A stretch of 64,000 bases of DNA from Tridacna crocea (Eukaryota; Mollusca; Bivalvia; Cardiida; Cardiidae): assembly GCA_943736015.1 (NCBI GenBank), contig OX031068.1, positions 25,490,296 through 25,554,295 on the forward strand, written 5' to 3'. The notes beneath the pieces are model-generated. The model was not told the DNA's origin. It saw only the letters and a program-made list of their open reading frames with translations, and ran no database searches. Positions 343 through 63,275 of the stretch are shown one piece after another (within the stretch, counting starts at the first letter, position 1; every line of letters begins with the position of its first letter). Both the position numbers and the translations under genes were made by a program.

Positions 343-555
343 TTAACCCTTTACCAGACGACAAACTTTCAGCCTTGTCCAAATTAAAACCATTTGCAGA
401 TGACAATTTGATTGTGACTCTAATGGTGCAAATTTTCTTTGATGGAAATCACTGTGTAAAAAGGAGATAATGCTGGTTCACCTTTTTCCGCAATGTTTTT
501 AAAGAGTTTTTTCTGCGGTGTCGTTAAAACCAGGTATTATTTGGTACAGGATTAA
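343..555 (+). mobile_element. Family A MITE
   Basis: TTAA at both ends. The palindrome is damaged on the left arm and around its centre. Shares its 3' TTAA (552-555) with the next copy. Confidence 0.8.
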
Positions 556-689
556 CTCATTACCTACCAAACGACAGAAATTTAGTTTTGTCCAAATTGA
601 AAGCATTTGCAGGCGATAAAATAAAAGTGACTGAATATTTGAAATTTGTTTTGTGAAGGCTAGAAAGCATTATGGGAAAAGGAGAAAAT
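552..689 (+). mobile_element. Family A MITE, 3' truncated
   Basis: Head intact to the left palindrome arm (GGGAAAAGGAGAAAATT), where it stops. Fragments of another copy follow at about 773-865. Confidence 0.75.
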
Positions 690-938
690 TTCCATCAAAT
701 AAATACAGAATATTGGTGTGCCCACAGGACCGTTGGCAGTCCTTATGTCTATCAAAAGGTTTTGTCAGGGTTTTAATCCTTTACCAATTTGTTCTTTTTC
801 TTATAACCTGGATTGAAAAGGGCTTTTGAAAACAGTTTTGGGAGAAAAGATGCTGGTAACCCTTTCAAAGCTAAATACAATTATTTATGCCACATCCAAG
901 TTGTCTGGAGGTGTGTTCAATATGGAAGAGTCTAATAT

Positions 939-1176
939 TTAACTATTTACCAAATGACAAAATTTATAAACTGGTCCAAATTGAAAGCATTTGCAGACGA
1001 CAAAATAAATGTGACTGAAAAATCAGAATTTGATTTAGGAAGGGTAGAAAACATTGTAGGAAAAGGAGAAAATGCTGGTTACCAGCATTTTCTCCTTTTC
1101 CAGTAATGTTTTCAAAAGGCCTCTACCTCAGGGTCGTCAAAAGTTGTCATTATGTGGAAAAGGATTCAAGAATTAA
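939..1176 (+). mobile_element. Family A MITE
   Basis: Near-complete, ends GGAAAAGGATTCAAGAATTAA with a few extra bases. Followed at 1200-1340 by a badly degraded '-' copy. Confidence 0.85.
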
Positions 1177-1489
1177 CCTAACACACTATGAAAGAGAAGA
1201 AATGCGAGAATATTTTGAGACAGGAGAAAATACTGGTGACTAATATTTTCTCCTTTTCGCACACTGTATTTCTGTTCTATCAAAGACAGAAACCATAGCT
1301 TGAGCCTACATTCAACTTTTTGTTTGCAAATACTTTTGTTCTGGTTTTGTAAATATTTGTTTTCTTGTAAGGAAATGCCTGTTTTTGACATATTTCAGTT
1401 TTTCATTGCTTTTTACCAACGAAGTGCCTGTTTTTTTACTATTTTAATTTTTCATTGCCTTTTACCTTCTATGACTATTTAACTTTCAG

Positions 1490-1549
1490 AGGGGATGCTA
1501 CAGAAATCACTCTCAAAGACCTGAAACCAGCAACAGAATATCATGTAAA
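1490..1549 (+). CDS. FNDC3A: FNDC3 exon a: end of FN3 domain 1
   Basis: Acceptor TTTCAG precedes and donor GTAAGT follows. Encodes GDATEITLKDLKPATEYHVK (last codon completed by the next exon), the E-F strand region with the L.PAT.Y.V pattern typical of FN3. Starts with one base that completes a codon from an upstream exon outside the window, and ends in phase 2. Confidence 0.9.
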
Positions 1550-4500
1550 GTAAGTCACTTCTGTCTGTAATTTTGCTAAGTTTTGGTACTTGCTTTTCCT
1601 TTCTGTTTGGAAAGCTCTTGCAGCTCTTTGAAGCCTTGCTGTATAACTGGCAAGCTGAATCTTTGGACTATCTAGGTTTCTGATTACAGACCGCCAGGTT
1701 TTGGGTTTAATCCCTACCCTAGGCCAGACATTTATTAACCCTTTACCAAACAACGAAATTTTAGACTAGTCCAAATAGAAAGCACTTGTAGATGACAAAA
1801 TGAATTAAACTCAAAAATTGAAATTAGCTTCCTGCAAGGTAGAAAACATTGTGGGAAAAGGAGAAAATGCTGGTTACCAGCATTTTCTCTTTTTCCCACC
1901 ATGTTTCAAAAGGCTTCTTTCTCAGGATGGTAAAAACCAGGGATTGTTTGGTAAAGGGTTAACCTGTCTATATATAGTGCTCAGTGACAGTGCTGCAGTT
2001 GACTTGTTTCCTCTGGGAACAAATTTGCTTTCTGTGGATCCTCAAAGAACAAGATTGTTGTATTAACCTTAAAAGTGCCTTTCACAAGCAAAGTGGCTTT
2101 TGCTTCTTATGTAGATCAGGTTCAGACTGCACACAAGATGCATTAACTCATTACCACACAATCCCTACTTTTGACTCCCCTGAGAAAGAAGCCTTTTGAA
2201 AACACTGTGGGAAAAGGAGAAAATGCTGGTGACCAGCATTTTCTCCTTTTCCCACAGTAATTTCTACCCATCCCAGAACAAATTTCTACTTTTCAGTCAC
2301 CTTTATTTTGTCCTCTGCAAATGCTTTCAATTTGCACCAGTCCAAAATTTTCTCTTGTGGTAATGAGTTAATAATAATAATTGATCTACGATGTGCACTT
2401 CTCTCCGGCATCATTGACAAGAGCAACTTTAAAATTGTATATATTTGGTAGGTATTATTAGACTGAAAATGTCCTCTTGGGTGCAGGAGCTAGTAATCTA
2501 TTGATTGCTCTTAACCCTTTACTCCATATGGCTTTTCTATGGTATCTCTAATTGACTGTAAATAACCGCAAAGATGAAGCCGTTTCTTATGTGTATATGA
2601 CACCTTTTGATAGCATAGAAAACATGGTGACAAAAGGTGAAATTGCTCGTCACGAGCAATTTCACCTTTTGCCACAATGTTTTCTAAAGGCTAATACAAG
2701 CGATGCGTAGAAATGAGTATCTATGGAGTAAAGGGTTAATAGTGGTGTTTATAGGTTTTCTGTAATCATGTTTGAAAAATTCACTTCTGATTGTGTTAAA
2801 AGAAAAAAATAGTTGGACTGCTGTAAGAGTGGAAACCAGAAAATATGTCAACTGATTAGCTGTGACAAGACGTTTAACTCTTTACCAAAGGACAAAATTT
2901 TAGACTGGTCCAAATTGAAAGCATTTGCAGACCATGAAATAAAAGTGACTGAAAATTTGAAATTTGTCTTGTGAAGGGTAGAAAATATAGTGGGAAAAGG
3001 AGAAAATGCTGATCTCCTTTTCCCCCACAATGCTTTCTAAAGGTTTCTTTCTCAGGGTCGACAAAAGTAGGGATTATGTGATAACGGGTTAAATGAGTTT
3101 AAAGGGTTATGTGATGAAGGGATAAACAGACAGACAAATGAACAATATAAACCTCTCTTATCTTTTTCAGAGTTTGCACCATTTTAGATGATATGAGAGG
3201 GTCCTCAACAGAAGCCATAAGTTTTAAAACCTTACCCTGTGAGCCTGACCAACCTTCCCCACCCACTCTTGTTCACAAATCAAAAACTTCCCTAACTCTC
3301 AAATGGAAAGTAAGTTCTGCTTTATTTATGAGATTTCTATTGGCATGGTAGATTCTTAACGGTTGGCCTTATGCCATATTCAACAACTATTCTAAATGTT
3401 ATTCTTATTTTAAATGTATACTGAACTTCATTTAACTTGATCCTGACCGTTATGCTGAAAATATAAGTAGGTGTATAAATAAAACTCTGATTATTATTTG
3501 GGAAGTTATATACTCAAGGGAATGTACAGGTAAGCAATTTAATTGGCACAAACCATACAAAATATTTCCAAGACCAGTCGGGACAATGTCACGGCAGCCC
3601 CATGCAATACTGGGGGTTAAAATAGAATTTTAATTAAAGTAAATGATGTTGACCTGGGTTAGGTTTGAAGAAATAGGCAATAGATTTAGAAAGTATTAAA
3701 ATTTCTGATTTGCTAAACCAAGTGGTTTAGCCAATTAGAAATTGTGTTAGTTTGCAATTTAGACAATTTATGAGAGTAAGACTGGGAATGTCATTATACC
3801 CTCCAAAATGAAGTGGAGGGGGGTATACTGTGCAGTGAAATACTCTTGACAGTTTTCAGATGCAGAACTCAAACTACACAGTGTTTGTTTATATGAAGTT
3901 GTGCATATGCAATTTCCATGACCCAGCTGTGATTTGTGGTGGAATTATCTCCCCTTGAATTTTTTTTCAACTTTTACTTTTGTACTGAACTTTTGAATTC
4001 TTTGACAAAGACCTGTTCTGTGGCAAGGAGCTGTTGGGGGGTATGATCATATTTAGTGATAGCTGTAGCTAAGAATTGTTGTTAAATAAGGGTGCCGACT
4101 TTTGCATCAGATGCTCAAGGTAATTTATGAGAGTAAGACCCGAGAATGTTATGAAAACTGGTTGGTGAATAAGGGCCATGGTATTTGCATTAGATACTTG
4201 GGGTAATTTATGGCAGTAAGACAAAAGATGTTATTAAGAGTGGTTGCTGAGTAAGGGTGCTGGTGTTTGCATTAGATACTGAAGGTAATTTATGATGGTA
4301 AGACAATGAATGCTATAAAAAGTGATGCAGATTAAGGGCCCCGGTGTTTGCATTAAATGCCACGGATAATTTGTGACAGTAAGACGAAGAATGTTATTAA
4401 CCCATTACCACACGAGAAAAATTTAGACTGGTCCAAATTGAAAGCATTTGCAGACGACAAAATAAAGGTGACTGAAAAATTGAAATTTGTTCTGGGAAGG

Positions 4501-7500
4501 GTAGAAAACACTGTGGGAAAAGGAGAAAATGCTGGTTACCAGCATTTTCTCCTTTTCCTACAGTGTTTTCAAAAGGCTTCTTGCTCGGGGGCGTCAAAAG
4601 TAGGGATTGTGTGGTAATGGGTTAAGAGTGGTTGCTGAATAAGGGTGCTGGTGTTTGCATTAGATACTGAAGGTAATTTATGATGGTAAGACAATGAATG
4701 CTATAAAAAGTGATGTAGATTAAGGGCCCCGGTGTTTGCATTAAATGCCACGGATAATTTGTGACAGTAAGACGAAGAATGTTATTAAGAGTGGTTGCTG
4801 AATAAGGGTGCTGGTGTTTGCATTAGATACTGAAGGTAATTTATGATAGTAAGACCATGAATGCTATAAAAAGTGATGCAGATTAAGGGCCCCGGTGTTT
4901 GCATTAAATGCCACGGATAATTTGTGACAGTAAGACGAAGAATGTTATTAAGAGTGGTTGCTGAATAAGGGTCTTGGTGTTCGTGTTAGATACTCTTGGC
5001 AGGTTATATTGTTAAGATAGGATAAAGGATGTATTTAGATGAGTAGCTTGGTGGTTTAACTTATTACCAGACTACAAAGTCTAAGGCTGTGGTGTCCGTG
5101 AGGTAGAGCGTCGGCCTCGTAACCAACAGGTTCCGAGTTTGATTCCCCAAAGTGGGTGTCAACTTTGGGATCTTTCATCGGCCCACACATTCGGCGCGAG
5201 TACTGGTGTAGTTCCCAGGAAGCAGAATCAAGAGAGATAAGTATAAGTTGTCAGAATTTGTTTCTCGATCAATGTAAAATAAATATGTTTAAAACTAAAA
5301 GTCTAAGGCTCATCCTGGGTTTAATATATTGTTTGCGAATGCTTTAAATATCATATAGATCATTCATATTGAAAGCATTAAACCTTTACCAAACAAAAAA
5401 ACAGGTTTGTTCAATATGAAAGCACTGGTGGCGGCGTCCAGTTCTTTTGTCCGGAGCATATCTCCAAAAGTATACTAGCTATGGTTATGAAATTTCATAG
5501 GTGGATAGATCTCATCAAGGGGGAGTGCAGTGCACATGAATCATAACTCTTGCTTGCTTAATTTTTTAGTTATTGCCCTTTGTTTATTTTCATACTTGAA
5601 TTTTGTCGGGAGCATATCTCATATGAAATTTCGTAGGTGGATAGATCTCATCAATACTGCCAAAGTGCTGGCAGGGGGTATAGATTCAAATTTAATGACA
5701 GCTCTTGTTTCATTCTATTTTCAGTCTGCCTCAGAGAATGGCTCTAAGATAACGGCCTATATTCTAGAGTGTGACATAGCTGAGGGCAGTGGAAAGTTCG
5801 ACGAAGTTTATAATGGCCTACAGAAACAGCATAGAATCACCAAATTAACCGCTTCCAGTAAATACACCTTCCGTTTAGCTGCGATAAATACTACAGGCAA
5901 AAGGTAAACTAACCGAAGTTAACATAGCAGAGTTACAAGTGATTGGAAATAAGTTAAACCATTTGACAAATGAAGCTATTAACCCATTGCCACACAATTG
6001 CAACTTTCTGTGGAAAAGGAAGCCTTTCGAAAACATAAAGAGAAAAGGAATAAAATGCTGGAAAACAGCATTTTCTCCTTTTCCCACAATGTTTTCTATC
6101 CTTCCAAAATCAAAATTCAATTTTTGATTCACTTTTGACGTCTGCAAATGCTGTCAGTTTGGACTAGTCCAACATTTTGTCGTTTGGTGAAGAGTTAATT
6201 ATTAAGTCTACTAGGGGAGCCTTTTGAAAACACTGAAGGAAAAGGAGAAATTGATTGTGACAAGCACATTGCCTCCCAGAAATGGGGATATTCAAAAGAT
6301 ATGGAGTTAACCCTGTGCCAAACAACAGAAGCTTGGACTAGTTGAAATAGAAAGCACTTGCAGAGGACAACATAAAAGTGACTCAAAAATAGACATTTGT
6401 TTTGGGAAGGGAAGAAAATGTTTTTGGTAAAGGAGAAAATGCTGGTTACAAGTATTTTCTCCTTTCCCCAAATTGTTTTCAAGAGCCTTCCTCAGCAGGG
6501 GTGTTTAAAGTTGGGATTGTGTGGTAATGAGTTTACCCTTGCTCAAACAAGAAATTAGACCTGTCCAAATTAAAAACAGTTGCTTTTGTTTTGATTGTAT
6601 TGGAGTTGAATACCATTTTAACAGCTTATGATTATGGCAGTCAATGACACAGCTGTCTCTTTCTTGGCTTTCTCACACCAGTATGTGCACAACTCTGTTT
6701 CCAAAGCCACTGACTGCTTTTCTCACATGCATCAGAGGTGAGAGGTGAAAAATCACCAGAAAGAAAGTTTGCCACAACCAGTTATCGAACTCGCAACCTC
6801 CAAATCATAAGCCAGACCACTGAGCTACACAGGTTGAAAGAAATCACAGATGATAAGTATGATTCAATGAATGGGATTTGGCTTCATTCCTTTGGATGTT
6901 AAGGCTGGGAAATGTTTGGTAGAGTTTTAATGCTTAAATTGAAAGCATTTGCAAGCAACAAGTGAAGTACTGTAAAATGAATGTTATTTTGCTTTAGTCC
7001 TTTGGAATGTTAGAGCTGGGAATTGTTCGGTAAAGTTTTATTGCATGAACATATTATGAAAACATTAAGGCCTCTTTCTCAAGGACATTCAATGTCTGGA
7101 TTGTGGGATAAAAGAGTTAAAATTTAGCCCCGCACCACACAATCCTTAAGGTTTTGGTCACCAGCATTTTCTTCTTTTCCCTCATTGTTTTCTATCCTTT
7201 TTGAGTCAAATCACATTATTCTAGCCTTGTTTTTCAGCTTCTGTTTGCTAATGCTTTGAATTCGGTAAAGTGAAAAATGTTGCTGTTTGGTAATAATGAG
7301 TAAATGAGAACAAGTTTAAGTTTGGCATTGTCCAGAATGCCTTGGCTGAGCAGATTATAGATCAGGCTACATGTTTTGTGCAGCATGATTTTTATTTACA
7401 ATGACTGCAAAGGTAATTAAAGAAGTAAAAATTGCTCTAGGGGTTATGTAATTGTTTGAATCAGTTATCATGATTTTTGATCAAATAGCATGACTTGAAA

Positions 7501-10500
7501 GAAAGTCAAACTTGCAAAATATGTGAGAGTGGGATTAATTGATAGTATAACCCTTCAAGCAACATATAAATCAAACAGACTCTTTGAATGTGGGAATAAG
7601 AATTACGTACAATTTCAAAGTTGCTACTATATCCCAGTGTAAATCAAAGATCAGTCATGCATGCTTTGGGCAATCTGATCTCGACCTTCACAGGCTGCTA
7701 AGGCAACTGAAGAAGGTGAAAGGCACTCTAAGGGTTAGAATTCAATTTGTTGTTGGCTACTGATAGCAGATCTGAGATTGAAATGATTTACCAAAAATAA
7801 TTGTTTACCCATTACCTCCACTCTTAACCCATTACCACACAATCCCTACTTTTGACGCCCCTGAGAAAGAAGCCTTTTGAAAACACTGTGGGAAAAGGAG
7901 AAAATGCTGGTAACCAGCATTTTCTCCTTTTTCCACAGTGTTTTCTACCCTTTCCAGAACAAATTTCTATTTTTCAGTCACCTTTATTTTGTCGTCTGCA
8001 AATGCTTTCAATTTGGACCAGTCCAAAATTGTCTCGTGTGGTAATGAGTTAACCAGTCAACAAAATTTTAGCCTGGTCTAAATTGAAAGTATTTAACTCT
8101 TTACCAGATGACAAAATTTTTGACTTGTCCAAATTGAAAGCATTTGCAGACGACAAAGTAAAGGTGACTGAAAAGTTGAACATTGTTTTGGGAAGGGAAG
8201 AAAACATTGTGGGAAAAGGAGGAAATGCTGGTTACCAGCATTTTCTCCTTTTCCCTCAATGTTTTCAGAAGGCCTCTTTCTTAGGGTCATTAAAAGTCGG
8301 GATTGTGTGGTAAACAGCTAAAGGTGACATCTTGCATGTGGCTTAAATAATTCAATTTCTTTGATAGGGTGGAAATCTTTGTTGGAATGGAAAAAATGCT
8401 GATTACCAGCATCTTCTCCTTTCCCCACAATATTTTCAGAAGGCTTCTCTCCCAGGGTTGTCAACTCCTGTGAGGTAAAGGGTTAGACTCTTTACCACAA
8501 TGCAAAATTTTAGCAACTTTTTTCTTTAGGGTCACTTAAAGTCAGGATTTTCTAGTTAAGTCTTAAGCAAACAAGTTTCATTTTCTCGTTGCTGAAGAAA
8601 CTTTAAAAAAGATGTTTTTTTTTAAAGAGAGAGTTTGCTGAAAATATGCAATTTTCCCTTTACCACACTTTTGTTTTTCTTTTGTATTCATGCATCCTTA
8701 AATTATGTCTATTAACCAAAATTTACTAGAAAATTTTCCTGCCAGGCTTCAGTCACCCTCAGTTATTTCTCTTTAACCCTTTACCACACAATCCCGGCTT
8801 TTAACAACCCTGTGAAAGAAGCGAGAGAAACCAGCATTTTCTCCTTTTCCCACAATGTTTTTTTACCTTCATAAAACAAGTTTCAATTCTTTAATCATAT
8901 TTATTTTGTCGTCTGCAGTTGCTTTCGATTTGGACCAGTGTAAAATTTTGTCGTTTGGTAAAGAGTTAATAATTCATTTCAAGTATCATTCCTATCTTTT
9001 GAGTCACTTTTAAGTCTATGCCAAATGAGAAAATTTCAGACTGGTACAAATTGAAAGCATTTGCAGACAAAATAAAGGTGACCAAAAAATTAAGATTTGG
9101 TTTTGGAAGGCTAGAAAAACACTGTGGGAAAAGGAGAAAATGCTGGTTACCAGCATTTTCTCTTTTTCCCAGTGTTTTCAAAAGGCTTTTTCTCAGGGTC
9201 GTTAAAAGTCGGGTTTGTGTGGTAAAGGGTTAGTTGATTGTCTGCAAACATCTCTCATCGGGACTTGATCAATTAACCCATTACCACACAATCCCTACTT
9301 TTGACGACCCCGAGAAAAAAGCCTTTAGAAAACATTGTGGGAAAAGGAGAAAATGCTGGTTACCAGCATTTTCTCCTTTTCCCACAATGTTTTCTTCCCT
9401 TTCCAAACCAGAGTTCAATTTTTCAGCCATAATGTATTTATTTTGTTGTCTCAGATGCTTTCAATTTGGACTGGTCTAAAAATTTTCTCATTTGGTAAAG
9501 AGTTAAACACCTCAAAAGTTGGAATTTGTTAGTAAAAGGGTAGAAAACATTGGGGGAAAAAGAGATTAAAAAACATGTTGGTTACCAACTGTTTACATTC
9601 CTTGACAACAAGGGTGTGTTTTGGAAGAAATTGTTGAAGTGTAGCAATTGGCATAACACCTATGTCATCATCTTGTAAAGAAATTCAATATTTTCTTGTG
9701 TCTCTTATCCTTTTGCTTAATGACAAAATATTAGAGTTGTCCAAATTGAAAGCATTTGCAGACAACTAAATAAATTTTAAAAATTGAACTTGACCCAAGA
9801 AGAGTAGAAAACAATGTGGGAAAAGGAGAAAATGCTGGTTGTCAGCATTTTCTCCTTTGCCCACAATGTTTTCAGAAGACCTCTTCCACTGGGTTGTAAT
9901 AACCAGGGATTTTTTGGTACAGGATTAGTATTGACATGATTTGCTTTGAACTTAGGTGAGTTGTTAAGTACGACAATAGGAACCCGTAACAGATAAGCAA
10001 ACACATTTTTGACACAGTTCTTCCTCCTTATTTTCGACCCGCTGAAAAGTCACCAGCAGTCTAACTTTGTATGGAAGCCAAATTTAACTATTATTTCTAT
10101 TACAGCTTGTATAGTGATTGTGTAACATTCTGTACCAGTGGCTCCCCTCCAAGCCAGCCTGACCCTCCCATGTTGTCAGAGTGTTACGTGACGGAACTAG
10201 TTTTGTCGTGGATCAAACGTCCTAATGATGATGACTTTATTCTCCAGGTGGACGATATAGATACGGTGAGAGGTTTAGACCTTTTCAAGCCTACAGCTAA
10301 CTCTCTTCCTGAATACAAAATTTTAAGACTTACCTTAACTCATTACCAAATAACAATATTTTAGGCTGGTCCAAATTGAAGGTTCTTGCAGATGACAATG
10401 TAAACCTAACTCAAGAATTGAAATTTGTTTCTTGCAGGGTAGAAAACATTGTGAGAAAAGGAGAAAATGCTGGTTACCAGCATTTTCTCCTTTTCCCACA

Positions 10501-13500: not shown

Positions 13501-16500
13501 TGAGTTAGTGCCCCTGATTTGACTTAAAAATGCTTGTCCAGACAACTCCTCCTACAGTTTCTGTCTGATTCACTTTAAACTTGGCAGAAGTGTTCATTAG
13601 GAGTTGTAGATGTGCAAAATGCAAATTTCATGAAAATTCTATGAAGAATTAATGAGTTATTGCCCCTGTGACATGAAATATAGGGGCAGGGGTATTTTAT
13701 CACCTTTAGTGATAGTTATTTTAGTAATTGCCAGTTTTGTCAAAGCGCTGGTGGGGGTATTAAACTGTTGCCACACAGCAAAATTTTAGACCTAAACAAA
13801 ATGAAAGCAATAACTATTGCAGACGACAAGTTCAGAGTGGCTCAAATGGTGCAATTTTGCATTGATTGGGTAGAAAACTTTGTGGGAAAAGGAGAAAATG
13901 CTGGTCTGCTTATCAGCTTTTTCTCCTTTTCCTACAAGGTTTTCAAAAGGCTTCTTTCTTAGGGTCTATAAAATTCAGCATTGTGTGGTAATGGGTTAAG
14001 TCACATTCAGTGACAGCTCTTGTTTGTAACTGTTTGAAATTTTTGTTGTATGATAAGGAGTAAAAGTCATAAAAGTCTGCAAGTATGACATTTTGATATT
14101 GTGTTGGATGGAGAATGGAAGTAATCGTCTATAATAGAGGCCACTGGCTCGAAATTACCTAACAGTGTCTTTCACATTTCAGCTAGGAGCCAAGAATGAT
14201 GAGGGGATGAGTAAATGGAGCGATGTTGTCACCTACAGAACCAAACCATCAAAACCTGACCCACCATATAAACCTCAAATCAAAGGCAAAATACATGCAC
14301 ATTCGTTTAGAGTTTCTTGGGGTCAGTATAAAAGATGATAAGGTTGCACTCTGGTTACCAGCATTTTCTTCTTTTCCCAGAACGTTTTCAAAAAGCCTAT
14401 TCTTCAGTTCAGGGTCGTTAAAAGTGGGGATTGTGTGGTAAAGAGATAATCGGTTGATCTATTAATGTGCAAAGTGAATGCTTTGCTGCAATTATCTTGT
14501 GTGTATTCAACCTTGGGTGTGGTTTTAGATTCAAATTATTATGGGAAAAGAGGGAAATGCTAGCATTTTCTCCTTTTTCAGAACATTGTCATTTCAAATA
14601 CATTTCACTTTTTTAGCCTTTTAATCCTCTACCAAAATGAACGCTTTAAATATTTTGTTTTTAGCTCACCTGAGCACAACGTGCTCAAGGGGAGCTTTTA
14701 GGATCACCCGTTGTCCGTCGTCCGTCGTGCGTCGTCCGTCGTGCGTCGTCAACAATTCTTTAAACATCAACTCCTCCTAAACCGCTGGGCAGATTTGGAC
14801 CAAACTTGGCAGGAATGTTCCTTGGGAGGTCCTCTTTAAAAATTGTTCACAGAATTTGATTCCATTAAAAACTCTGGTTGCCATGGCAACCAAATGGAAT
14901 TTTTTAGCAAATTCTTTAAAAATCTTCTCCTCTGAAACCGCTGGTCGGATTTTGAAATAATTTCACAGATATGTTCCTTGGCTGACCCTTTTCAAAAATT
15001 GTTCGTGAAATTTTGATTCGTCAAAAAATGTGGCTCTGGTGAATGGGGGCTTCTTGCACTATACAGAAATGAAGGAATTCTTTAAAAATCTTCTCCTCTG
15101 AAACCGCTGGTCGGATTTTGAAATAATTTCACAGAGATGTTCCTTGGGTGACCCTTTTCAAAAATTGTTCGTGAAATTTTGATTGGTCAAGAAACATGGC
15201 TCTGGTGAATGGGGGCTTCTTGCACTATACAGAAATGAAGAAATTCTTAAAAATTCTTCTTCTCTGAAACCGCTGGTCAGATTATAAAATAATTTCACAG
15301 ACTTGTTCATTGGGTTACCCTTTTCAAAAATTGTTCACAAAATTTTGATTGGTCAAGAAACATGGCTCTGGTGAATGGGGGCTACTTGCACTATACAGAA
15401 ATGAAGAAATTCTTGAAAATTCTTCTTCTCTGAAATGGCTGGACAGATTTTGAAATAATTTCACAGAGATGTTCCTTTGGTGACCCTTTTCTAAAATTGT
15501 TCGCGAAATTTTGATTGGCCAAGAAACATGGCTGTAGTGAATGGGGGCTACTTGCACTATATGGAAATGAAGAAATTCTTGAAAATTCTTCTTCTCTGAA
15601 ACCCGTGGTCAGATTTTAAAATAATCTGACAGAGATGTTCCTTTGGTGACCCTTTTCTAAAATTGTTCGCGAAATTTTGATTGGCCAAGAAACATGGCTC
15701 TAGTGAATGGGGGCTACTTGCACTATATGGAAATGAAGAAATTCTTGAAAATTCTTCTTCTCTGAAACCCGTGGTCAGATTTTAAAATAATCTGACAGAG
15801 ATGTTCCTTGGGTGACCTTTTCCAAAAGCTGTACCTATAATTTTGATCCGTCAAGAAAGATGGCTCTTGTGAATGGGGGCTACTTGCACTATACGGACAT
15901 GATGAAATTCTTGAAAATTCTCTTTCTCTGAAACCCTTGGTCAGATTTTGAAATAATTTCAGAGAGATGTTCCTTGGGTGACCCTTTTCAAAACTTGTTC
16001 GTAAATTTTGATCCATCAAGAAACATGGCTCTCGAGGATGGGGGCTACTTGCTCTTATACAGAAATGAAGAATTCTTAAAAATTCTTCTTTTTGAAACTG
16101 ATGGTCAGATTTCGAAATGACTTTTACATGTGACCTTTTGAAAATTGCTTTGCAAAATTATAAATTTGGTTCCAATGTTTCAATACCTCAAAAAAAAAAA
16201 AAATAGACTATGGTCATCTCAAAAATTCAGGTGAGCGATCCAGGGCCATCTTGGCCCTCTTGTTCCTTTTACATGTATTACATTGTTTTCAAAACTTATT
16301 GATGCATAGACATTAAAACATGTAATTGTGTAATTGTTTGTAAAAGGCTATTTATATTTAGTACCAGAATTTGAAAAGATCATATAATAATTGACCTTTT
16401 TATAAACACAGGTTTGGCACGCCCCCATATTAACATGCTATATTGGTTTATTAAGCCTGTCAAGCTAACAAGAAATTGTGTCGGACTTTTTAGCTCACCT

Positions 16501-19500
16501 GAGCACGAAGTGCTCAGAGTGAGCTATTGTGATCACTCACCGTCCGTCGGCGTCCGCCGTCCGTCGTCCGTTCACATTTTTAGCTCACCTGAGCACAACG
16601 TGCTCAAGGGGAGCTTTTAGGATCACCCGGTGTCCGTCGTCCGTCGTGCGTCAGTGCGTCGTGCGTCGTCAACAATTCTTTAAACATCAACTCCTCCTAA
16701 ACTGCTGGGCGGATTTGGACCAAACTTGGCTGGAATGTTCCTTGGGAGGTCCTCTTTAAAAATTGTTCACAGAATTTGATTCCATCAAAAACTCTGGTTG
16801 CCATGGCAACGAAATGGAATTTTTTAGCAAATTCTTTAAAAATCTTCTTCTCTGAAACCGCTGGCCAGATTTTAAAATAATTTCACACAAATGTTCCTTG
16901 GGTGACCCTTTTCAAAAATTGTTCGTGAAATTTTGATCCGTCAAGAAACATGGCTCTGGTGAATGGGGGCTTCTTGCACTATACAGAAATGATGAAATTC
17001 TTAAAAATTCTTCTTCTCTGAAACCGCTGGCCGGATTTTAAAATAATTTCACACAGATGTTCCTTAGGTGACCCTTTTCAAAAACTGTTCGTGAAATTTT
17101 GATCCGTCAAGAAACATGGCTCTGGTGAATGGGGGCTTCTTGCACTGTACAGAAATGAAGAAATTCTTAAAAATTATTCTTCTCTGTAACCGCTGGTCAG
17201 ATTTTAAAATAATTTCACAGAGATGTTCCTTGGATGACCCTTTTCAAAAATTGTTCGCGAAATTTTGATCTGTCGAGAAACATGGCTCTGGTGAATGGGG
17301 GCTACTTGCACTATACAGAAATGAAGAAATTCTTAAAAATTCTTCTTCTCAGAAACCGCTGGTTAGATTTTGAAATAATTTCACAGACTTGTTCCTTGGG
17401 TTACCCTTTTCAAAAATTGTTCGCGAAATTTTGATTGGTCAAGAAACATGTCTCTGGTGAATGGGGGCTACTTGCACTATACGGAAATAAAGAAATTCTT
17501 GAAAATTCTTCTTCTCTGAAATGGCTGGACAGATTTTGAAATAATTTCACAGAGACGTTACTTGAGTGACCCTTTTCTAAAATTGTTCGCAAAATTTTGA
17601 TTGGCCAAGAAACATGGCTCTAGTGAATGGGGGCTACTTGCACTATATGGAAATGAAGAAATTCTTGAAAATTCTTCTTCTCTGAAACCTGTGGTCAGAT
17701 TTTAAAATAATCTGACAGAGATGTTCCTTGGGGGACCCTTTCCAAAAGCTGTACATATAATTTTGATCCATCAAGAAACATGGCTCTTGTGAATGGGGGC
17801 TACTTGCACTATATGGACATGATGAAATTCTTTAAAATTCTCTTTCTCTGAAACCCCTGGTCAGATTTTGAAATTATTTCAGAGAGATGTTCCTTTGGTG
17901 ACCCTTTTCAAAACTTGTTCGTAAATTTTGATCCATCAAGAAACATGGCTCTCATGGATGGGGGCTACTTGCTCTTATACAGAAATGAAGAATTCTTAAA
18001 AATTCTTCTTTTTGAAACTGATGGTCAGATTTCGAAATGACTTTTACAGGTGACCTTTTGAAAATTGCTTGGCAAAATTATAAATTTGGTTCCAATGTTT
18101 CAATACCTCAAAAAAAAAAAAGACTATGGTCATCTCAAAAATTCAGGTGAGCGACCCAGGGCCATCTTGGCCCTCTTGTCTTGTTTACACTCTAGCATTT
18201 ACAAATATCAACTAATCAGCACCAAACTTGGTCAAAGTGTGTATGACCATAAGATCTCGGATGAGTTCGATTATGGGTCAAATCGGACCCGAACATCTGG
18301 AGTTATTTGCCCTTGAATTAAGAAAATTGCTATATTTCACTTTGTTTACACTCTAGCATCTACAAATATCAACCAATTAGCACCAAACTTTGTCAAAATA
18401 TATATGACCATAAGATCTCGGATGAGTTCGATTATGGGTCTCATCGGACCAGAACGACCGGAGTTATTTGCCCTTGAATTAAGAAAATTGCTATATTTGA
18501 CTTTGTTTTCACTCTAGCATCTACAATTTTTAACCAATTGACACCAAACTTGGACAAAATATACATGACCATAAGATCTCGGATGAGTTTGATTATGGGT
18601 CAAATCGGACCAGAACATCTGGAGTTATTTGCCCTTGAATTAAGAAAATTGCTATATTTTATTTTTGTTTACACTCTAGCATCTACAAATATCAACCAAT
18701 CAGCACCAAACTTGGTCAAAATATATATGATCATAAGATCTCAGATGAGTTCGATTATGGGTCTCATCGGACCAGAACAACCGCAGTTATTTGCCCTTGA
18801 ATTAGAAAAATCGCTATATTTGACTTTGTTTTCACTCTAACATCTACTATTATTAAACCAATCGACACCAAACTTGGGACAAAATATACATGACCATAAG
18901 ATCTCGGATGAGTTTGATTATGGGTGTATTCAGACCAGAACAACTGGAGTTATTTGCCCTTGAATTCGAAAAATTGCTGTATTTCACTTTGTTTACACTC
19001 TAGCATCTACAAATATCAACCAATTAGTTCCAAACTTGGTCAAAACATATATGACTCTAAGATCTCAGATGAGTCCGATTATGGGTGACCAGAACAACGG
19101 GAGTTATTTGCCCTTGAATTAGAAAGTTTTTTTAGAATAGTTCTTAGTCTGGAGCATAACTTTGTCATTTCCAGTCCAATTTACTTGAAACTTGGCATTT
19201 GTGTTTATTGCAATAAAACAGAGTGCAGTGTGAAAAGAACCATAACTCTACTTCATACTGTCTATAAGGTAATTCCCTTTGATTGGAATTTTTACAGCAT
19301 TTTCTGCTTGTCTGGAATATAACTTTGTCATCTACAGCCTGAACATCGTCAAATTTGATATGCATGATTGTTGAAAAATTATGGAGTGCATTGCACAAGA
19401 ACCATAACTTCCTAGCACAAATTTTGAGTTATTCCCCCTTCATTTTTATAGCATTTCTTGCTTTGTCAGGAGCAAAACTTTGTCATCTTAAGGAGGAATG

Positions 19501-22500
19501 ACTTGAAATTTGGTATGCTTATTTGTTGCAGTATTTGGAAGTGCAGTGCCTAAGAATTGTAACTGTACCTTGTGCTGCCTTTAAGTTATTTCCCTTTGAA
19601 TGTCATTTTTACAGCATTTAGTGCCTGCCCTGAATATCACTGTCATCTTAAGTCAGAACGACTTCAAACTTGGTATTCATGTTTTTTGCAATATTACGGA
19701 GTACAGTGCACAAGAACAATAACTCTACATTGCAGGAATTTTGAGTAATTCCACTTTGATCTTCATTTTTACAGTATTTCTTGCTTGTATGGAATGGAAC
19801 TTCAAAGTCTCAAGTTAGATTGCAACAATTTGCTGCTCCTGTTTCATTATCATTTGGCCTTGAACCTTGTTATTTGGTATATATCTTTATTTTAGACCTG
19901 TGCTGCTTGGTACTCAGGTGAGCAATATAGGACCATCATGGTCCTCTTGTTTGTGTACATGACGCCCAATGCTGCGTTTTCATTGGCCAATAAGACATCG
20001 ATAGACCTGTCAATCAAAATCGGCAAAAAGGTCAATTATATGGTACAATTTTTTTGACCAAGTTCTTGTGAGACCTAGCACACAAATGAATTAGTGAGCA
20101 ATTAACATGACATGGCTGAAAAAAATGCTAAAACAGTGTAAAACGCCATTCACTCATTCAATCATCCAATCATAAACTTTGACATTTTTGTTTATATTGC
20201 ATCCTAGTTTATTGCAGCTGTAATTATCTATTAAAGCACTTGATGGGAGTTAGCTCTTGACAGTATGACGAAATGTTGGATTTTGTCCAAGTTGAAAGCA
20301 TTTCCAGATCAGAAATTCATTATAGAACATAGTATTTTATTTATGACTCAAATGGTAGAAAATACAGCTTACTATCATTTTCTCTTTATCCTAGAATGTT
20401 TTAAAAAAAGGTTTCTTGCAGGGCTTACATGGCCCTTCTTTCAAATGTTAGAACTCGGGATTGTGTGGAAAAATGTTAAGTTTAGTTCCTATTACAGTTA
20501 AACTTTACATATGTCTTTGCAGATCCTCCAAGAGATGATGGTGGGTCAGAGATAACAAAATATATTGTAGAGTTGGATGATGGTAAAGGTGAGTTGACAG
20601 TGTCAATACTTCCATAAGAGAATATGTAATAGAAAACTCAAGAAATACACTAAAACAGAGAAATTTTTCATAGTTCAAGGTCATTGCCAAATGGCAAAAT
20701 GTCAGGCTGTAACAGAAAGTTGTCATGAATCGTGCCCATCTGGGTAGCTCAGTGGTAAGGGAACCAGACCCATAACCTATTGGTTGTGAGTTCAATACCC
20801 GATTGAGGCATACTTTCTTTCTGGTGATTTTTCTCCCTTTACCTCTGAAGCATATGAGAAAATAATAACTTGGGGAAAAAAAGTTGTGTCATTACTGCTG
20901 TAAGAAAGCCAAGACACATATGCATAGGTACACTGACCGCTGTGATATAACCAGTGCTATCAACAGGCCCTTAATCTGCAATTTCAATTAACCAATCTCA
21001 TGAATCATTTTAGGTTTGGATTGCATTAATTTCAGCTTCTCAAAGCGTCTAAGAGCTTTTCCATCTTAAAATTTTGTTCAAATTATTTTTTTTAAAAGTT
21101 TCCTGAAGCCTTATGCTGTTTAAACCAAGAAAGATGTAAAAAAAATGTATGTTACTGTGACATGAATGAGATACTTCTGAAAATACTGCAAAATGTAACT
21201 GAAATAAGCAGATCTTGATAATTGATAATAGAGAATTTGTACTTTAATTTCTGCTTGCTACCATACAATAGGAACAGGTAATATTGCTGTAGATCTAGGC
21301 TCTGGGTCACTTAACCCTGTACCACGCAATCTCAAGTTTTAATAACTCATAACAGGAAGGCTTTTGAAAATATTGTGGGAAGCACAGAAATGGCTGGTGA
21401 CCCGCATTTTCCAATTTTCCTACTGTTTTCTACCCTGTCTTAGAACTCCAGCTCTCTTGCTTTTAATTTTGAACCTATCTTTGGCAGATAATTTGAAGTT
21501 GGTAAACTCCAAGGAGAAAGCAATGTGTAAAAAAGGAGAAAATGCTTGTTACCAGGATATTTTCCTTTTTTGAACCATGTTTTCTAAAAGCAATCTTTCC
21601 AAAAGTTGTTTACAACTCGGGAAAGGATTCATACATTTGACAGCATTATTAAAAAAGTATTATGGAGAAAGAAGGGCAATTTGTCCTTTTCTGCCACAGT
21701 TGTATAAAAAAAGGTCTGCTGCTAGTGGTGAGCTAGTCTTGTGCCAGAAGTAATGCATTAATTCATACCAAATGACAATATTTTAGGCTTGTCTAAATCG
21801 AAAGTGTTTGCAGACCGCAAAATAAAAGAGACTGACCAGCATTTTCTCCTTTTCCGACGATGTTTCCTTAAGGCTTCTTCCTCCGGGTCATCAAAAGGAG
21901 GGATTGTGTGGTAATGGGTTAAATTACATTTTTGGACAATATAGATGAAGATCAGTACAGTTAGGTCTAAGATCTACACTTAGTGCAGCCCCAGAAAAGG
22001 CTATGAATGTGGAAAAAAATGAGTCTTTCTTTGTGAATGAAACTTCCTGTTGTTTATCTAAATGTCCCTGTTGTTTACACTATCTCTTTCAGTGCCAAAT
22101 ATAAACCTTGAAACTCTTTGGACGGCTGAAAATATACTGTTACTCAGAAATTCATCTAATAGATTTGACTGAAAAAAGTAAATGATATAAATCTAAAATC
22201 AGACTGCAAGTGCTGTGCAGTCTGACCTTGATCTATGCTGTCCTTAAAAGCTGTCTTTTTTGGCTATTGCACTGAAAGGGTTGCATAGCAGTATAGGTGT
22301 GAATTGTTCAGTGTCAGGTCTATTCCTGTTCCCCGTGTTTATATATGTGTTAACTCATTACCAAACGACAATATCTTAGGCTTGTCCAAATCGAAAGCAT
22401 TTGCAGACAACAAAATAAAAGTGACTGAAAAATTGAAAGTTGTTTTGTGAAGAGTAGAAAACATTGTGGGAAAAGGAGAAAATGCTGGTTACCAGCATTT

Positions 22501-42360: not shown

Positions 42361-42587
42361 TTAACCCTTTCCCAAATGACAAATTTTAGACTCTTCCAAA
42401 CTCAAAGAGTTTGCAGACGACTATTTCAAATTTGATAAAATGGCAGGAAGTTCTCCAAATGGGTAGAAAACACTGTGGGAAAAGGAGAAGTTGCTCGTAA
42501 CGAGCAATTTCTCCTTTTCCCACAGTTTTTTCTAAAGACTTGTACTGCAGACACGTAAAAACAAGGGCTTGTGTGGGAAAGGATTAA
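42361..42587 (+). mobile_element. Family A/B intermediate
   Basis: Outer arms as in 27984-28194. Palindrome GGGAAAAGGAGAAGTTGCTC with centre CGTAACG: family A at arm positions 14 and 21, family B at 26 and 31. Confidence 0.88.
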
Positions 42588-44678: not shown

Positions 44679-44679
44679 T

Positions 44680-46328: not shown

Positions 46329-46558
46329 TTAACCCTTTACTCCATTGATACTCATTTTGATGTATCAACAACAGACAGCTTTTGAAAACATTGAGGGAAA
46401 AGGAGAAATTGCTCGTAACAAGCAATTTCTCCTTTTCCCACAATGTTTTCCACTCAATCAGATAATTCTGACCTCATTTGTCCATAGTTTTGACATCATA
46501 TCTTTATTTGCTGCTGAAATGAACAAGCCTCAAATTGGCTTATCAGGTAAAGGGTTAA
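46329..46558 (+). mobile_element. Family B outer arms with intermediate palindrome
   Basis: Begins TTAACCCTTTACTCCATTG like family B, but the palindrome is GGGAAAAGGAGAAATTGCTC (family A at positions 14 and 21, B at 26 and 31). Confidence 0.82.
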
Positions 46559-47829: not shown

Positions 47830-48184
47830 TTTAAAATGACGGAGATACTGCGCAAAAAGGAAGAAAATTCTTATATCCAGCATTTTCTCCCTGCCCAGTG
47901 TTCTCAAAAGCTGTATTCTTGAAGGTCATTAACCCATTACCACACAATCCCTACTTTTGACGCCCCTGAGAAAGAAGCCTTTTGAAAACACTGTGGGAAA
48001 AGGAGAAAATGCTGGTAACCAGCATTTTCTCCTTTTCCCACAGTGTTTTCTAACCTTTCCAGAACAAATTTCAAATTTTCAGTCACCTTTATTTTGTCGT
48101 CTGCAAATGCTTTCAATTTGGACCAGTCTAAATTTTTCTCGCGTGGTAATGGGTTAAAAAGTCTGGATTGTATGGTATAGGGTT
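47830..48184 (+). mobile_element. Old family A copy interrupted by a young one
   Basis: Left part AAAAGGAAGAAAATTC to GAAGGTCATTAA; right part TTAAAAAGTCTGGATTGTATGG. They join exactly if 47929-48157 is removed with one TTAA. Confidence 0.88.
47929..48157 (-). mobile_element. Family A MITE nested in family A
   Basis: Very little diverged. The 67-nt palindrome is perfect (CACTGTGGG and CCCACAGTG). Inserted at the TTAA of the host's GGTCATTAAAA. Confidence 0.95.
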
Positions 48185-48253: not shown

Positions 48254-48480
48254 TTAACTCTTTACCAAACAACAATATTTTAGGCTAGTCCAAACTGAAA
48301 GCATTTGCAGACGACAAAGTAAAAGTGACTGAAAATTTGAAATTTGTTTTGGGAAGGGTAGAAAATATTGTGGGAAAAGGAAAAAATGCTGGTCACCAGC
48401 ATTTTTTTCCTTTTCCCACAATGTTTTCAAAAGGCTTCTTTGTCAGGGTCGTTAAAAGTGGGGATTGTGTGGTAAAGACT
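48254..48480 (+). mobile_element. Family A MITE
   Basis: Complete except that the 3' TTAA reads AAAGACTT; near-perfect palindrome with a T insertion. Confidence 0.88.
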
Positions 48481-53476: not shown

Positions 53477-53704
53477 TTAATCCTTTACTCCATAGATACT
53501 CATTTCTACGCATTGCTTGTAGGAGCCTTGGAAAACATTGTGGCAAAAGGTGAAATTGCTCGTCACGAGCAATTTCACCTTTTGCCACAATGTTTTCTAC
53601 ACTATCAAAAGGTGTCATATACACATAAGAAACGGCTTTATCCTTGCTCTTATTTATGGTCAATTAGAGATACCATAGAAATACCTTATGGGGTAAAGGG
53701 TTAA
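53477..53704 (+). mobile_element. Family B TTAA-MITE, best preserved
   Basis: TTAATCCTTTACTCCATAG to GGGTAAAGGGTTAA. The 67-nt palindrome is perfect: arm with GTGGCAAAAGGTGAAATTGC, centre CGTCACG. Confidence 0.93.
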
Positions 53705-53901: not shown

Positions 53902-54337
53902 TTAACCCTTTACCAAATAGCAAAGTTTTAGACTCTTCCAAGTTGAAAGCCTTAGCAGACCACAAAATTAAAGCCACTCAAAAATTGAAATTTGTTTTGG
54001 GAAGGGTAGAAAAACAGAGCTCCAGATAGAGGGAGTGATTTTGATTTCAAAATTGAAAATATACATTCTTCTGCACCGAACCCTATGTTATGGGTACTCA
54101 TTCGAATTGTCTCATCGAGACAGTTCTAATGAGTACACACAACATAGGGTTTGGAAGAGAAACAATGGATTTAGAATACCATTACTCCCTCATATCTGGA
54201 GCTCTGTAGAAAACATTGTCGGAACAGGAGAAAATGCTGGTTACCAGCATTTTCTCCTTTTCCAAGGATGTTTTCAAAAGGCTTCTTTCACAGAGTCGAA
54301 AAAAAAAACCCACAGGGATTTTTGGTAAATATGTTAA
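53902..54337 (+). mobile_element. Family A MITE split by element F
   Basis: Head TTAACCCTTTACC to GGGTAGAAAA; continues after F with TAGAAAACATTGTCGG to ATGTTAA. TAGAAAA is duplicated on both sides of F. Confidence 0.9.
54015..54206. mobile_element. Element F, 192 bp, hAT-like
   Basis: Inverted ends CAGAGCTCCAGATA and TATCTGGAGCTCTG. A longer imperfect inverted repeat runs inside (ACCCTATGTT and AACATAGGGT; CATTCGAATTGTCTC). The CAG-type ends and 7-bp target duplication suggest hAT (usually 8 bp). Confidence 0.8.
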
Positions 54338-57264: not shown

Positions 57265-57448
57265 TTAACCCCTTAGGCTGCTAAGTGCGATTCACTGACC
57301 TTTTCAGGACAGTGTAGATTAAGATCAGACTGCACAGAAAGTGCAGTCTGATCTTCATCTACACTGTCCAATGAGGATATACTCTTCTCCACAAGAAAGG
57401 GTTGAAATATCTTTAGGTTTTTACCATCTGCATGAAAGTTTCAATTAA
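57265..57448 (+). mobile_element. Family G TTAA-bounded MITE
   Basis: 184 bp: TTAACCCCTTAGGCTGCTAA; palindromic core ATCAGACTGCACAGAAAG and GTGCAGTCTGAT; AGTGTAGATTAAG and CATCTACACTG; ends CAATTAA. Confidence 0.8.
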
Positions 57449-57673
57449 CCTTTTACTCCATAAATACTTATTTCTACGCATTGCTTGAAGGAGACTTTGG
57501 AAAACGTTGTGGCAAAAGGTGAAATTGCTCGTAACGAGCAATTTCACCTTTTGTCACAATGTTTTCTATGCTATCAAAAGGTGTCATTTACACATAAGAA
57601 ACGGCTTCATCCTTGCTGTTATTTAGGGTCAATTAGAGATGCCATATGAATGCCTTATGGGGTAAAGGGTTAA
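57445..57673 (+). mobile_element. Family B TTAA-MITE
   Basis: Shares TTAA 57445-57448 with G. Palindrome GTGGCAAAAGGTGAAATTGC with centre CGTAACG. Confidence 0.9.
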
Positions 57674-58204: not shown

Positions 58205-58651
58205 TTAAGACCATTTTACTTACTTTAGCCTCATTTACTTTTGTACTTGAAAGAGATTTGAAAGAAATACAGTGTTGAGACTGTAAAGATTTTTTTCAGT
58301 TATCTGTCAAAGCTTAACCCATTACCATGCAATCCCTACTTTTGACGCCCCTGAGAAAGAAGCCTTTTGAAAACACTGTGGGAAAAGGAGAAAATGTTGG
58401 TAACCAGCATTTTCTCCATTTCCCACAGTGTTTTCTATCCTTCCCAGAACAAATTTAAAATTTTCAGTCACCTTTATTTTGTCGTCTGCAAATGTTTTCA
58501 ATTTGGACCGGTCTAAAATTTTCTCGTGTGGTAAAGAGTTAAGACCATTTTACTTATTTTAGCCTCATTTACTTTTGTACTTGAAAGAGATTTGAAAGAA
58601 ATACAGTGTTGAGACTGTAAAGATTTTTTTCAGTTATCTGTCAAAGCTTAA
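58205..58651 (+). repeat. 113-bp TTAA-bounded direct repeats around a family A MITE
   Basis: 58205-58317 and 58539-58651 both run from TTAAGACCATTTTACTTA to GTCAAAGCTTAA and are almost identical. Between them lies the MITE 58314-58542; a second MITE follows at once (58648). Confidence 0.93.
58314..58542 (-). mobile_element. Family A MITE
   Basis: Complete, CACTGTGGG subfamily; head carries the rare variant CCATGCAATCCC. Confidence 0.93.
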
Positions 58652-58873: not shown

Positions 58874-58886
58874 TACTCCAGCATGT

Positions 58887-59152: not shown

Positions 59153-59177
59153 TGCATAGTAAATGCTTATTCCAAGA

Positions 59178-61206: not shown

Positions 61207-62395
61207 CAAATACCAAAGCTCTATGTCTTCCAGTTTCAAAGAAGAATTTTAAATTTTCCTTCTTTGCCTGTTCAATGTTGTGATCCCCGGGGCTGGGCCA
61301 GTTTTGACCAAAGCAGCATCCTTGGAACATACTTGGTAGAGGTCCACTCAAAGATGCTACATACCAAATTTCAAAGCTCTACACTTTCCTGTTTAAGAGA
61401 AAAAGAAATTTGAAGTTTTCCTTCTTTGTGCCCATGTTCCAACTTATGACCAAACTTGGTAGAGGTCCACTAGAAGATTCTGCATACCAAGTATCAAAGC
61501 TCTGCACCATCAAATTTCAGAAAAGAAGATTTTTTGAGAAGTTTTCCTTCTTTGTTGCTATGTTCGAACCTGTGACCCTCGGGGCAGGGCCAGTTTTGAC
61601 CCCAAGGGTATAACATGAACAAACTTGGTAGAGGTCCACAAGGAACTACTACATGCCAAATATTCAAGCTCTATGCCTTCTACTTTAAGAGAATAAGAAT
61701 TTTAAAATTTTCTTTCTTTGTTCCTATGTTTGAACTTGTGACCCCTGGGACAGGGCCAGTTTTGATCCCAGGGGCATCATATGAATAAACTTGGTTGGGA
61801 TCCACTCAAGGATGCTACATACCAATATCAAAGCTCTATGCCTCTTAGTTTTTGAGAAGAAGAATATTAAAGTTTTCATTTTTTGTGCCTATGATCCAAC
61901 TTGTGTCCCCCTGGGTGGGGCCAGTTTTGACCCCAGGGACATTACATGAACAAACTTGGTAGAGGTCTACTAGGGGCTGCCACAAACCAAATACCAAAGC
62001 TCTACACCATCTAGTTTCAGAAGAGAAGATTTTTAAAGTTTTCCTTCTTTGTTCCTATGCTCGAACTTGTGACCCCCGGGCGGGGTCAGTTTTGACCCTT
62101 GGGCATCATTTGAACAAACTAGGTAGAGGTCCACTAGGAGATGCCCAAGACCAAATATCATAAGCTCTACCCTTTCTAGTTTCAGAGAAGAAAATTTTTA
62201 AAGTTTTCCTTATTTTTTCCTAAGCTCAAACTTGTGACCCCCAGGGTATTACCAGTTTTTGACCCCATGGGCATCATTTGAACAAACTTGGTAGTAATCC
62301 ACTAGGAGATGCCACACACCAAATATCAAAGCTCTATGCCATCTAGTTTCAGAGAAGAAGATTTTTAAAGATTTTGTATTTTTTTACTTCTCCTA
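61207..62395 (+). repeat. Tandem array of about 165-bp units
   Basis: Marker ACTTGGTAGAGGTCCAC at 61331, 61454, 61623, 61789, 61954, 62118 and 62286 (spacing 164-169 except the first, 123). Units carry GGGGCCAGTTTTGACC and ATCAAAGCTCTATGCC. Confidence 0.8.
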
Positions 62396-62579
62396 ATTAT
62401 TTGACACTGAAAACCTGTTTTTAACGAAATGGCCATATGTAACTATTTTTTGGTAGATGTATTCTTTCAGTTTGAAAAAGAAGGTTTTTTTTTTTTTCAA
62501 TTTTCATAGTACATGTATAACCCTGCCTAAAAATTATTTTCTGTAACTGGCTGAGGGGAACTACTTTTTATTACCACGG

Positions 62580-62761
62580 TAACCCTTAGGCAGCTAACTG
62601 TAACTCACAAAACTTTTGTAGACAATGTAGATCAAGATCAGACTGCACAGAATGTCTGATGAGAACTTATTTCTCAAAGAAATGAATTAGAAACAGAATC
62701 ATTTCGGTTTTTACCATCGGCTTGAAAGATTCATAAATCTATTTTGAAAGAGAAGGGTTAA
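62580..62761 (+). mobile_element. Family G MITE, core partly deleted
   Basis: GTAACCCTTAGGCAGCTAAC; ATCAGACTGCACAGAATGTC where one arm of the core is lost; ends GAAGGGTTAA shared with the next copy. Confidence 0.7.
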
Positions 62762-62984
62762 CTCTGCCAAATGAAAAAAAAATTAAACTAGTCAAAATAA
62801 AAAGTATTTGCAGACAGCAAAATGTATGTGAATAAAAAATTTAAATTTGATTTGGAAAGGGTGGAAAACATTGTGGGAAAAGGAGAAAATGATGGTTACC
62901 AACATTTTCTCCTTTCCCCAAAACTTTCCAAAAGCCTTCTCTTTCAGGGGCACTAAAAGTTGTCATTGTGTGGTAAAGGGTTAA
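62758..62984 (+). mobile_element. Family A MITE
   Basis: TTAA to TTAA, both arms moderately diverged. Confidence 0.88.
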
Positions 62985-63047
62985 AGGTCGACTAGAGAAA
63001 TCTAGATGTACCAGTACACAAAATTTTGTTGGCCTAAGCATTTATGT

Positions 63048-63275
63048 TTAACTCTTTACCAAACAACAGAATTTTAAACTGGTCCAAATTTAAAGCACTT
63101 GCAGACTACAAAATAAACAGAACTCAAAAATTGAAATTTGTTTCCAGCATGGTAGAAAACATTGTGGAAAAGGAGCAAATGCTGGTCACCAGCAATTTCT
63201 CCTTTTCCCACAGTGTTTTCAAAAACCTTCTATCACAGGGTCTAAAAAACCAGGGTTTGTTAGGGAAAGAGTTAA
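63048..63275 (+). mobile_element. Family A MITE
   Basis: Complete; AACCAGGGTTTGTTAGG right arm. Confidence 0.9.

Follow-up and report, generated by a model that had tools for sequence, protein, structure and literature searches.

The 64,000-nt stretch of the Tridacna crocea genome examined here (assembly GCA_943736015.1, contig OX031068.1, forward-strand positions 25,490,296 to 25,554,295; hereafter the window) is crowded with miniature inverted-repeat transposable elements (MITEs) that share a central 67-nt palindrome, and this palindrome is, on average, the best conserved part of the element. We somewhat favour the reading that pairing between its two arms is kept mainly in the lineages that go on transposing, with an added contribution from rare copying of one arm onto the other or from small founder groups that were already mirrored. 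Matched substitutions on the two sides of a stem are commonly read as a strong sign that structure is under selection. This one genome offers an unusually large natural sample for that question, with over 200,000 copies in which the centre of the stem is exact, and it allows a direct count of arms changed singly, in mirror fashion or at non-mirrored sites. By these counts roughly 2% of arm changes seem to become mirrored in copies that otherwise decay one arm at a time, a background to be reckoned with if covariation is interpreted elsewhere. The stronger conservation of the internal core than of the terminal repeats in the same MITE points to an unrecognised requirement for amplification.

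The palindrome consists, in family A and family B copies, of two 33-nt arms flanking a single middle base, as the initial annotation had described. Sixty-six left/right arm pairs are present in the window when up to nine base differences are allowed per arm, and 58 pairs have the exact 33-1-33 spacing. The interval from 343 to 63275 has, in either orientation, 58 A-like copies of nearly full length, or roughly one every 1.1 kb; two of them (starting at 27984 and 42361) belong to family C. The left end is an exact TTAA in 46 of these 58 and the right end in 44, the TTAA target being judged from the copy ends. MITEs of the piggyBac superfamily are defined by a TTAA target and by terminal repeats that start with CCC, and the terminal inverted repeats found here start with CCC or CYC beside the TTAA. 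The family A consensus ends are TTAACTCTTTACC and TTAACCCTTTACC, those of family B are TTAACCCTTTACC and TTAACCCTTTACT, and family C has TTAACCCTTTCCC at both ends. On the strength of these ends and of the target, families A, B, C and D can be classified from sequence as piggyBac-like MITEs that are non-autonomous and insert at TTAA. They are about 229 bp long and follow one nearly fixed plan, which in order comprises a terminal repeat, a long spacer, the 67-nt hairpin core, a short spacer and a terminal repeat.

The assembly that holds the window comprises 1.049 Gb in 31 contigs. A 20-mer from the arm, searched with up to two mismatches, matches 562,735 forward and 560,649 reverse sites (about 1.12 million), and its reversed control only 64 and 52 (116 in all), which rules out the palindrome as a chance occurrence. 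Exact matches to the central 29-mer of the A type number 208,145. Twenty 10-kb regions elsewhere in the genome, taken at fixed and thus non-random positions (5 Mb on C1 to C17, 10 Mb on C13, and 20 Mb on C1 and C2), contain 141 pieces of the elements, which occupy 24,406 of 200,000 bases (12.2%). Text searches of openly licensed papers gave no description of this element in the excerpts of the matches listed, and six DNA or peptide strings searched as text matched no paper. Neither the 45-nt inner core, compared with collections of viral contigs and genome contigs, nor a 30-nt arm pattern, compared with the viral contigs, found a match; an archaeal contig matching half an arm has no palindrome and was set aside as chance.

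Core type and spacers distinguish at least four families, A and B among them, where two had initially been recognised. The consensus layouts, given as long arm, palindrome and short arm, are 107-67-55 for A, 107-67-55 for B read in reverse, and 106-67-55 for C (a consensus of nine rows, three of them satellite copies from L002 and L005); family D, known from one full copy, has 108-67-55. The spacers of A and C are clearly related (z 11.2 and 6.3), as are the short spacers of B and D (z 5.1). The outer arms of A and B had been called unrelated, which holds for their long spacers (z −0.2) and fails for their layout and, weakly, for their short spacers (z 3.2). Since B in reverse has the layout of A, the two are, as judged by sequence, positional counterparts in opposite orientation and not unrelated elements sharing a core by chance. 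Insertion of a solo palindrome into two unrelated MITEs is rejected in view of the common plan of all four families. Of 160 arm pairs, 27 match little in their outer parts, and fragments, satellite copies and D were recognised among these but no solo family of its own; none of 67 TTAA-bounded stretches lacks a match to A, B or C.

The cores can be described by the bases at five arm positions: T8 G14 A21 A26 G31 in A, C8 G14 A21 T26 C31 in C, and T8 C14 T21 T26 C31 in B. The four reported differences between A and B, at positions 14 (G/C), 21 (A/T), 26 (A/T) and 31 (G/C), are each mirrored in both arms, and the C core is paired and intermediate between the two. The D copy has T8 G14 A21 T26 in both arms, with C at position 31 in one arm and T in the other, and the four core types therefore separate the 26/31 differences from the 14/21 differences as two steps. 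All four A/B changes are indeed complement flips, which account for four of the five fixed differences among the A, B and C consensus cores, the fifth (position 8) being a transition. In 135 copies, 22% of the individual changes within the palindrome and 30% of those outside it are flips, as are 13 of the 41 outer differences between A and C; depending on the background rate, four of five would be expected by chance with a probability of about 0.01–0.09, and five of six, when a variant at position 30 is included, with about 0.003–0.04. This excess is mild and post hoc, and we regard it as suggestive. The position-30 variant is an extra change in the tandem-repeat form of L002 and L005, where it is paired in most units.

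Conservation was measured in family A, for which 156 copies were reduced to 152 by removal of near-duplicates (rows L001, L003 and L004 were left out, the last two overlapping L002); this set still includes one L002 and two L032 satellite copies, and 142 of the 152 have enough coverage for the trees and for the analyses of position 8, of within-A pairs and of covariation. Divergence from consensus in the 152 copies is 0.070 per site in the palindrome, 0.183 in the outer arms and 0.175 in the terminal repeats. By 11-nt bins, identity is 0.89–0.95 in the palindrome and 0.73–0.93 outside it, one outer bin lying within the range of the palindrome. On a tree of the 142 copies, built from 154 outer columns only, changes per column on internal branches number 0.85 in the palindrome and 3.90 in the outer columns (a 4.6-fold depletion), compared with 8.30 and 13.75 on terminal branches (1.7-fold). 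The deficit in the palindrome is thus larger on internal than on terminal branches (odds ratio 2.8, p 2e-14). Singleton counts were dropped as a gauge of change after insertion because the outer columns are saturated.

Core changes are, in other words, rarest on the branches that gave rise to further copies, and for this reason we infer a filter at the amplification step. Copies with a nearly intact core would spread better, the core being screened at transposition or amplification, and inserted copies would then decay with little regard to pairing. The mirrored share would arise by rare arm-to-arm copying, either through template switching at the palindrome or through correction of the hairpin, and such copying would supply ready-paired variants that source elements carry forward as family differences. 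Candidates for the step at which the core acts are synapsis, replication or gap repair, or an RNA. The selection on the hairpin that was initially proposed thus gains some support from the depletion on internal branches and is insufficient alone.

The simplest rival is a founder effect, in which each family descends from a source whose palindrome was perfect by chance, and the differences are inherited once with neither selection nor copying. It has a real though minor claim, and its best case is the additional paired difference reported inside family A (CACTG with CAGTG, compared with CATTG with CAATG). This pair is real: 16 of the 142 copies have C8 in both arms and 17 have it in one arm only. 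The nearest neighbour by outer arms is, however, another carrier for 13 of the 16 C8/C8 copies, and the C8/C8 label requires 6 changes on the tree compared with 15.5 when labels are shuffled. The pair is therefore mostly one inherited event, or one subfamily, and once that founder is accounted for little is left of it as a sign of recurrent paired change. Also in keeping with founders is the one-sidedness of most single-copy arm changes, with 519 one-arm changes and 25 mirrored pairs in a 140-copy set without L002/L005 and one repeated L032 satellite copy. Against founders, all 33 pairs are intact in the consensuses of A and C, and 32 in that of B (which has G-T at position 13), even though the long spacers of A and B have diverged beyond recognition, and the depletion of internal-branch changes in the palindrome is a further difficulty for them.

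Position 8 was excluded from the counts of mirrored changes in both the 142- and 140-copy sets. Mirrored same-base changes number 29 in the 142 copies, compared with 16.1 in simulations, and 25 compared with 16.3 in the 140 copies. Coincidences of different bases at the same site are equally raised in the 140 copies (25 compared with 17.2 simulated), so the sample alone does not prove mirroring. At least two mirrored sites occur in five of the 140 copies, compared with a simulated 2.1, and 12 of 400 simulations attained that number. Mirrored G20A is present in five copies of the sample, none of which has another of these as its nearest relative. In a covariation analysis, a check of the kind that had been proposed, six of 33 mirrored pairs (8, 14, 21, 26, 30 and 31) score beyond the 99th percentile for column pairs that do not mirror each other when the families are pooled, but only three of 33 (8, 20 and 29) inside A alone.

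A direct count is possible genome-wide. Three changes, G22A, G31A and G31C, were counted around the exact central 29-mer, for which the wild type numbers 208,145. The one-arm forms number 6,048, 6,872 and 679, respectively, and the mirrored forms 223, 236 and 19, compared with 43.9, 56.7 and 0.55 expected if the arms change independently. A non-mirrored control, 22A with 31A, was found 203 times compared with 99.8 under independence, a factor of 2.03, which we take to reflect unequal age or exposure of the copies. With this factor applied, the expected numbers are 89, 115 and 1.1, leaving the mirrored forms 2.5-, 2.05- and 16.9-fold in excess and the excess itself at 2.2%, 1.7% and 2.6% of one-arm changes. 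A stricter control at the same site, 31A facing 31C, was found 29 times, 2.6-fold over independence (11.2) and not clearly higher than the 22.8 obtained by scaling with the non-mirrored control (P 0.12). With the same-site control the expected numbers become 114, 147 and 1.4, the mirrored excess 1.96-, 1.61- and 13.3-fold, and its share 1.8%, 1.3% and 2.5%. Mirrored forms beyond independent mutation, which template switching would leave and which founders may also give, are thus found at all three changes.

The excess is a similar share over the tenfold range of frequencies, as predicted if one arm is copied onto the other and not predicted by founders. It is nevertheless only 1.3–2.6% of one-arm changes, and in most copies the arms therefore decay separately. 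The repeated rewriting of one arm from the other that was initially put forward as an explanation is therefore supported as an excess over both controls, and at a low rate. We consider it very improbable that such copying maintains the palindrome by itself, with no selection: all three changes tested speak for it, but about 2% per one-arm change seems too rare to preserve the consensus pairs over the distance between A and C, one-arm variants persist, and the low overall rate of arm change is left unexplained. Mirrored copies could also be minor founders, and those with mirrored G31C possibly survive from a form intermediate between A and C.

Several observations weigh against the favoured reading of a filter combined with rare copying. 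Terminal changes are also fewer in the palindrome, and part of its conservation is thus not specific to the spreading branches. The tree is noisy and the split between internal and terminal branches is not clean; it places no paired and 56 single changes on internal branches, which is partly tree noise, and assigns one-arm changes to clades of up to 11–14 copies. Deletions of at least 4 nt fall in the palindrome as its length predicts (13 of 47, in 29% of the length), and by the same figures a deletion hot spot at the hairpin was rejected. The raised same-site coincidences in the copy sample, the 2.6-fold same-site control and the few covarying pairs inside A all count in the same direction, and small mirrored founder subfamilies could yield the genome-wide excess. 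Imperfect cores also spread: the tandem family of L002 and L005 shares one-arm changes at positions 18, 32 and 33, and the sole full D copy has two mismatches, at arm positions 11 and 31. In family B, position 13 is changed from G to A on the long-arm side in eight of 13 copies, the opposite arm having G in six of these, A in one and T in one, and the change leaves a G-T pair (G-U in RNA). The claim that arm changes come in matched pairs therefore stands for the four A/B differences and not for position 13, where a change mostly in one arm has spread and pairing is not obligatory. A family B copy at L039 (5925–5991) has the position 13 change in both arms, as if a second step had followed.

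A rather unlikely variant of the amplification filter is that the core is itself the amplification signal. Folding of the core would then be part of the step by which copies multiply, perhaps the hairpin-dependent repair of a gap or replication following excision. Arm copying during that step would send out new elements with re-matched arms. If true, this would join hairpin selection and the flow of paired variants in one mechanism and would explain the extreme copy number.

A serious rival, to which we give a similarly low probability, is that the core is a double binding site for the transposase or for a host factor, with the arms changing together as they track one protein and the hairpin incidental. 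As described in excerpts of PMC11707139, piggyBac-type transposases bind palindromic motifs via paired C-terminal domains, and the sequence of the core is conserved besides its pairing. The piggyBac transposase domain (PF13843) has 118 matches in the genome, some of them within 2.8-kb copies so nearly identical as to point to recent activity. Twelve of these loci were read and both ends were recognised in eight, where they are of the TTAACCCATTTATGCC, TTAACCCTTTATATAC and TTAACCCTTTCAG types; TTAACCC is common to all three and TTAACCCTTT to two, and no autonomous partner with the TTACC-type ends of the MITE was found among the 12. One element, at L012 (834–3716), has inverted copies of GCGTCCCCTTTTGGGGACGC near both ends, a possible transposase-binding palindrome and a point in favour of paired sites. 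The inverted repeats listed for the autonomous elements L012, L016 and L021 nevertheless include none resembling the arms, the arm pairs near L015–L018 lie outside those elements, in neighbouring MITEs, and the family consensus arms differ at three to four of 33 sites. Loci L014–L020 (for example L016, 868–3633) are piggyBac elements with TTAACCCTTTATATAC ends, and among them copies on different chromosomes (L016, L017 and L018) are 99.9% identical over 2.77 kb, a sign of recent activity.

That transcribed copies form a long hairpin for the RNA machinery, with pairing kept for that purpose, appears highly doubtful. The A, B and C cores are predicted to fold at −52.2 to −54.9 kcal/mol, and B with the one-arm change at position 13 would still be fully stemmed via a G-U pair (predicted −49.5). 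Good folding is, however, expected of any perfect 33-nt repeat, and a search of the window for known RNA families gave no Rfam match at gathering thresholds.

The elements resemble other piggyBac-superfamily MITEs in having TTAA at both ends, ends of TTAACCCTTT or close to it, a short length, no transposase gene and a very high copy number. They differ in that the central palindrome, and not the terminal repeats, is best conserved, and in the 107-67-55 plan common to several families. Palindromic MITEs able to fold as a hairpin include Angel of fish and MADE1/miR-548 of mammals, whose stem is made by the terminal repeats and not, as in the present elements, by a separate internal core. The REPINs of bacteria have a hairpin character and depend on a transposase of another kind. 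As far as the excerpts of PMC3116915 go, REPINs are likewise short mobile repeats of high copy number, but they are bacterial and have no relation to this MITE. Template switching creates and maintains hairpins in RNA genes, according to excerpts of Monttinen and Loytynoja 2022 (PMC8794818), where a single event can copy one arm onto the other and make multi-base compensatory changes; that system concerns RNA genes, whereas the present evidence comes from a DNA transposon and consists of mirrored changes in excess of their statistical expectation.

Individual copies in the window illustrate these states (strand is that on which the long arm comes first). The family A copy at 22350–22578 (+), with TTAA at either end, has its long arm at 22350–22456, its palindrome at 22457–22523 with centre base 22490, and its short arm at 22524–22578; one of its 33 arm pairs is mismatched (position 9, right arm). 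The family B copy at 53477–53704 (−) is a perfect palindrome (33 of 33 pairs), with its long arm at 53704–53598, palindrome at 53597–53531 and short arm at 53530–53477. Other family B copies lie at 2511–2739 (+; palindrome 2618–2684) and 57445–57673 (−), both with G changed to A at position 13 in one arm, at 23573–23801 (−), where that position reads A on the side of the long arm and T on the opposite side, and at 33147–33369 (+). Family C is represented at 42361–42587 (+; palindrome 42466–42532), with the family arm type C8 G14 A21 T26 C31, and at 27984–28194 (+), where 17 alignment columns are deleted within the palindrome, and family D at 46329–46558 (−; palindrome 46384–46450, layout 108-67-55). 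Perfect 67-nt palindromes are found in the family A copies at 9273–9506 (−; palindrome 9328–9394) and 47929–48157 (−; palindrome 47984–48050), the latter of the C8 subfamily. C8 is present in both arms at 2143–2371 (−), 4397–4625 (+), 7824–8052 (−), 28592–28820 (+) and 58314–58542 (−), and the family A copy at 48254–48477 (+) has a mirrored G22A, in both arms, that is absent from the family consensus.

Family A cores have been captured in tandem satellite arrays at L030 (six cores about 1.63 kb apart) and L032 (five cores about 1.85 kb apart), and at L002 (1358–1998) five units about 143 bp apart form an array with C-like cores. The window also contains other repeats. Another palindromic repeat, with arms of 35 and 25 nt, a loop of ATC and ends without TTAA, is present at 54079–54151 and 63667–63719, the two being alike by inspection. 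A different MITE-like element at 40981–41249 is an inverted repeat with 105-nt arms, a 59-nt spacer and 18 mismatches. Two arrays of a 166-bp tandem repeat, each of about 7.3 copies, lie at 14909–16118 and 16829–18032. Open reading frames at 5509–5907 and 29089–29583 match fibronectin type III domains, the match falling short of the curated cut-off in the former and exceeding it in the latter, and are probably exons of one gene, perhaps FNDC3-like, with MITE-filled introns.

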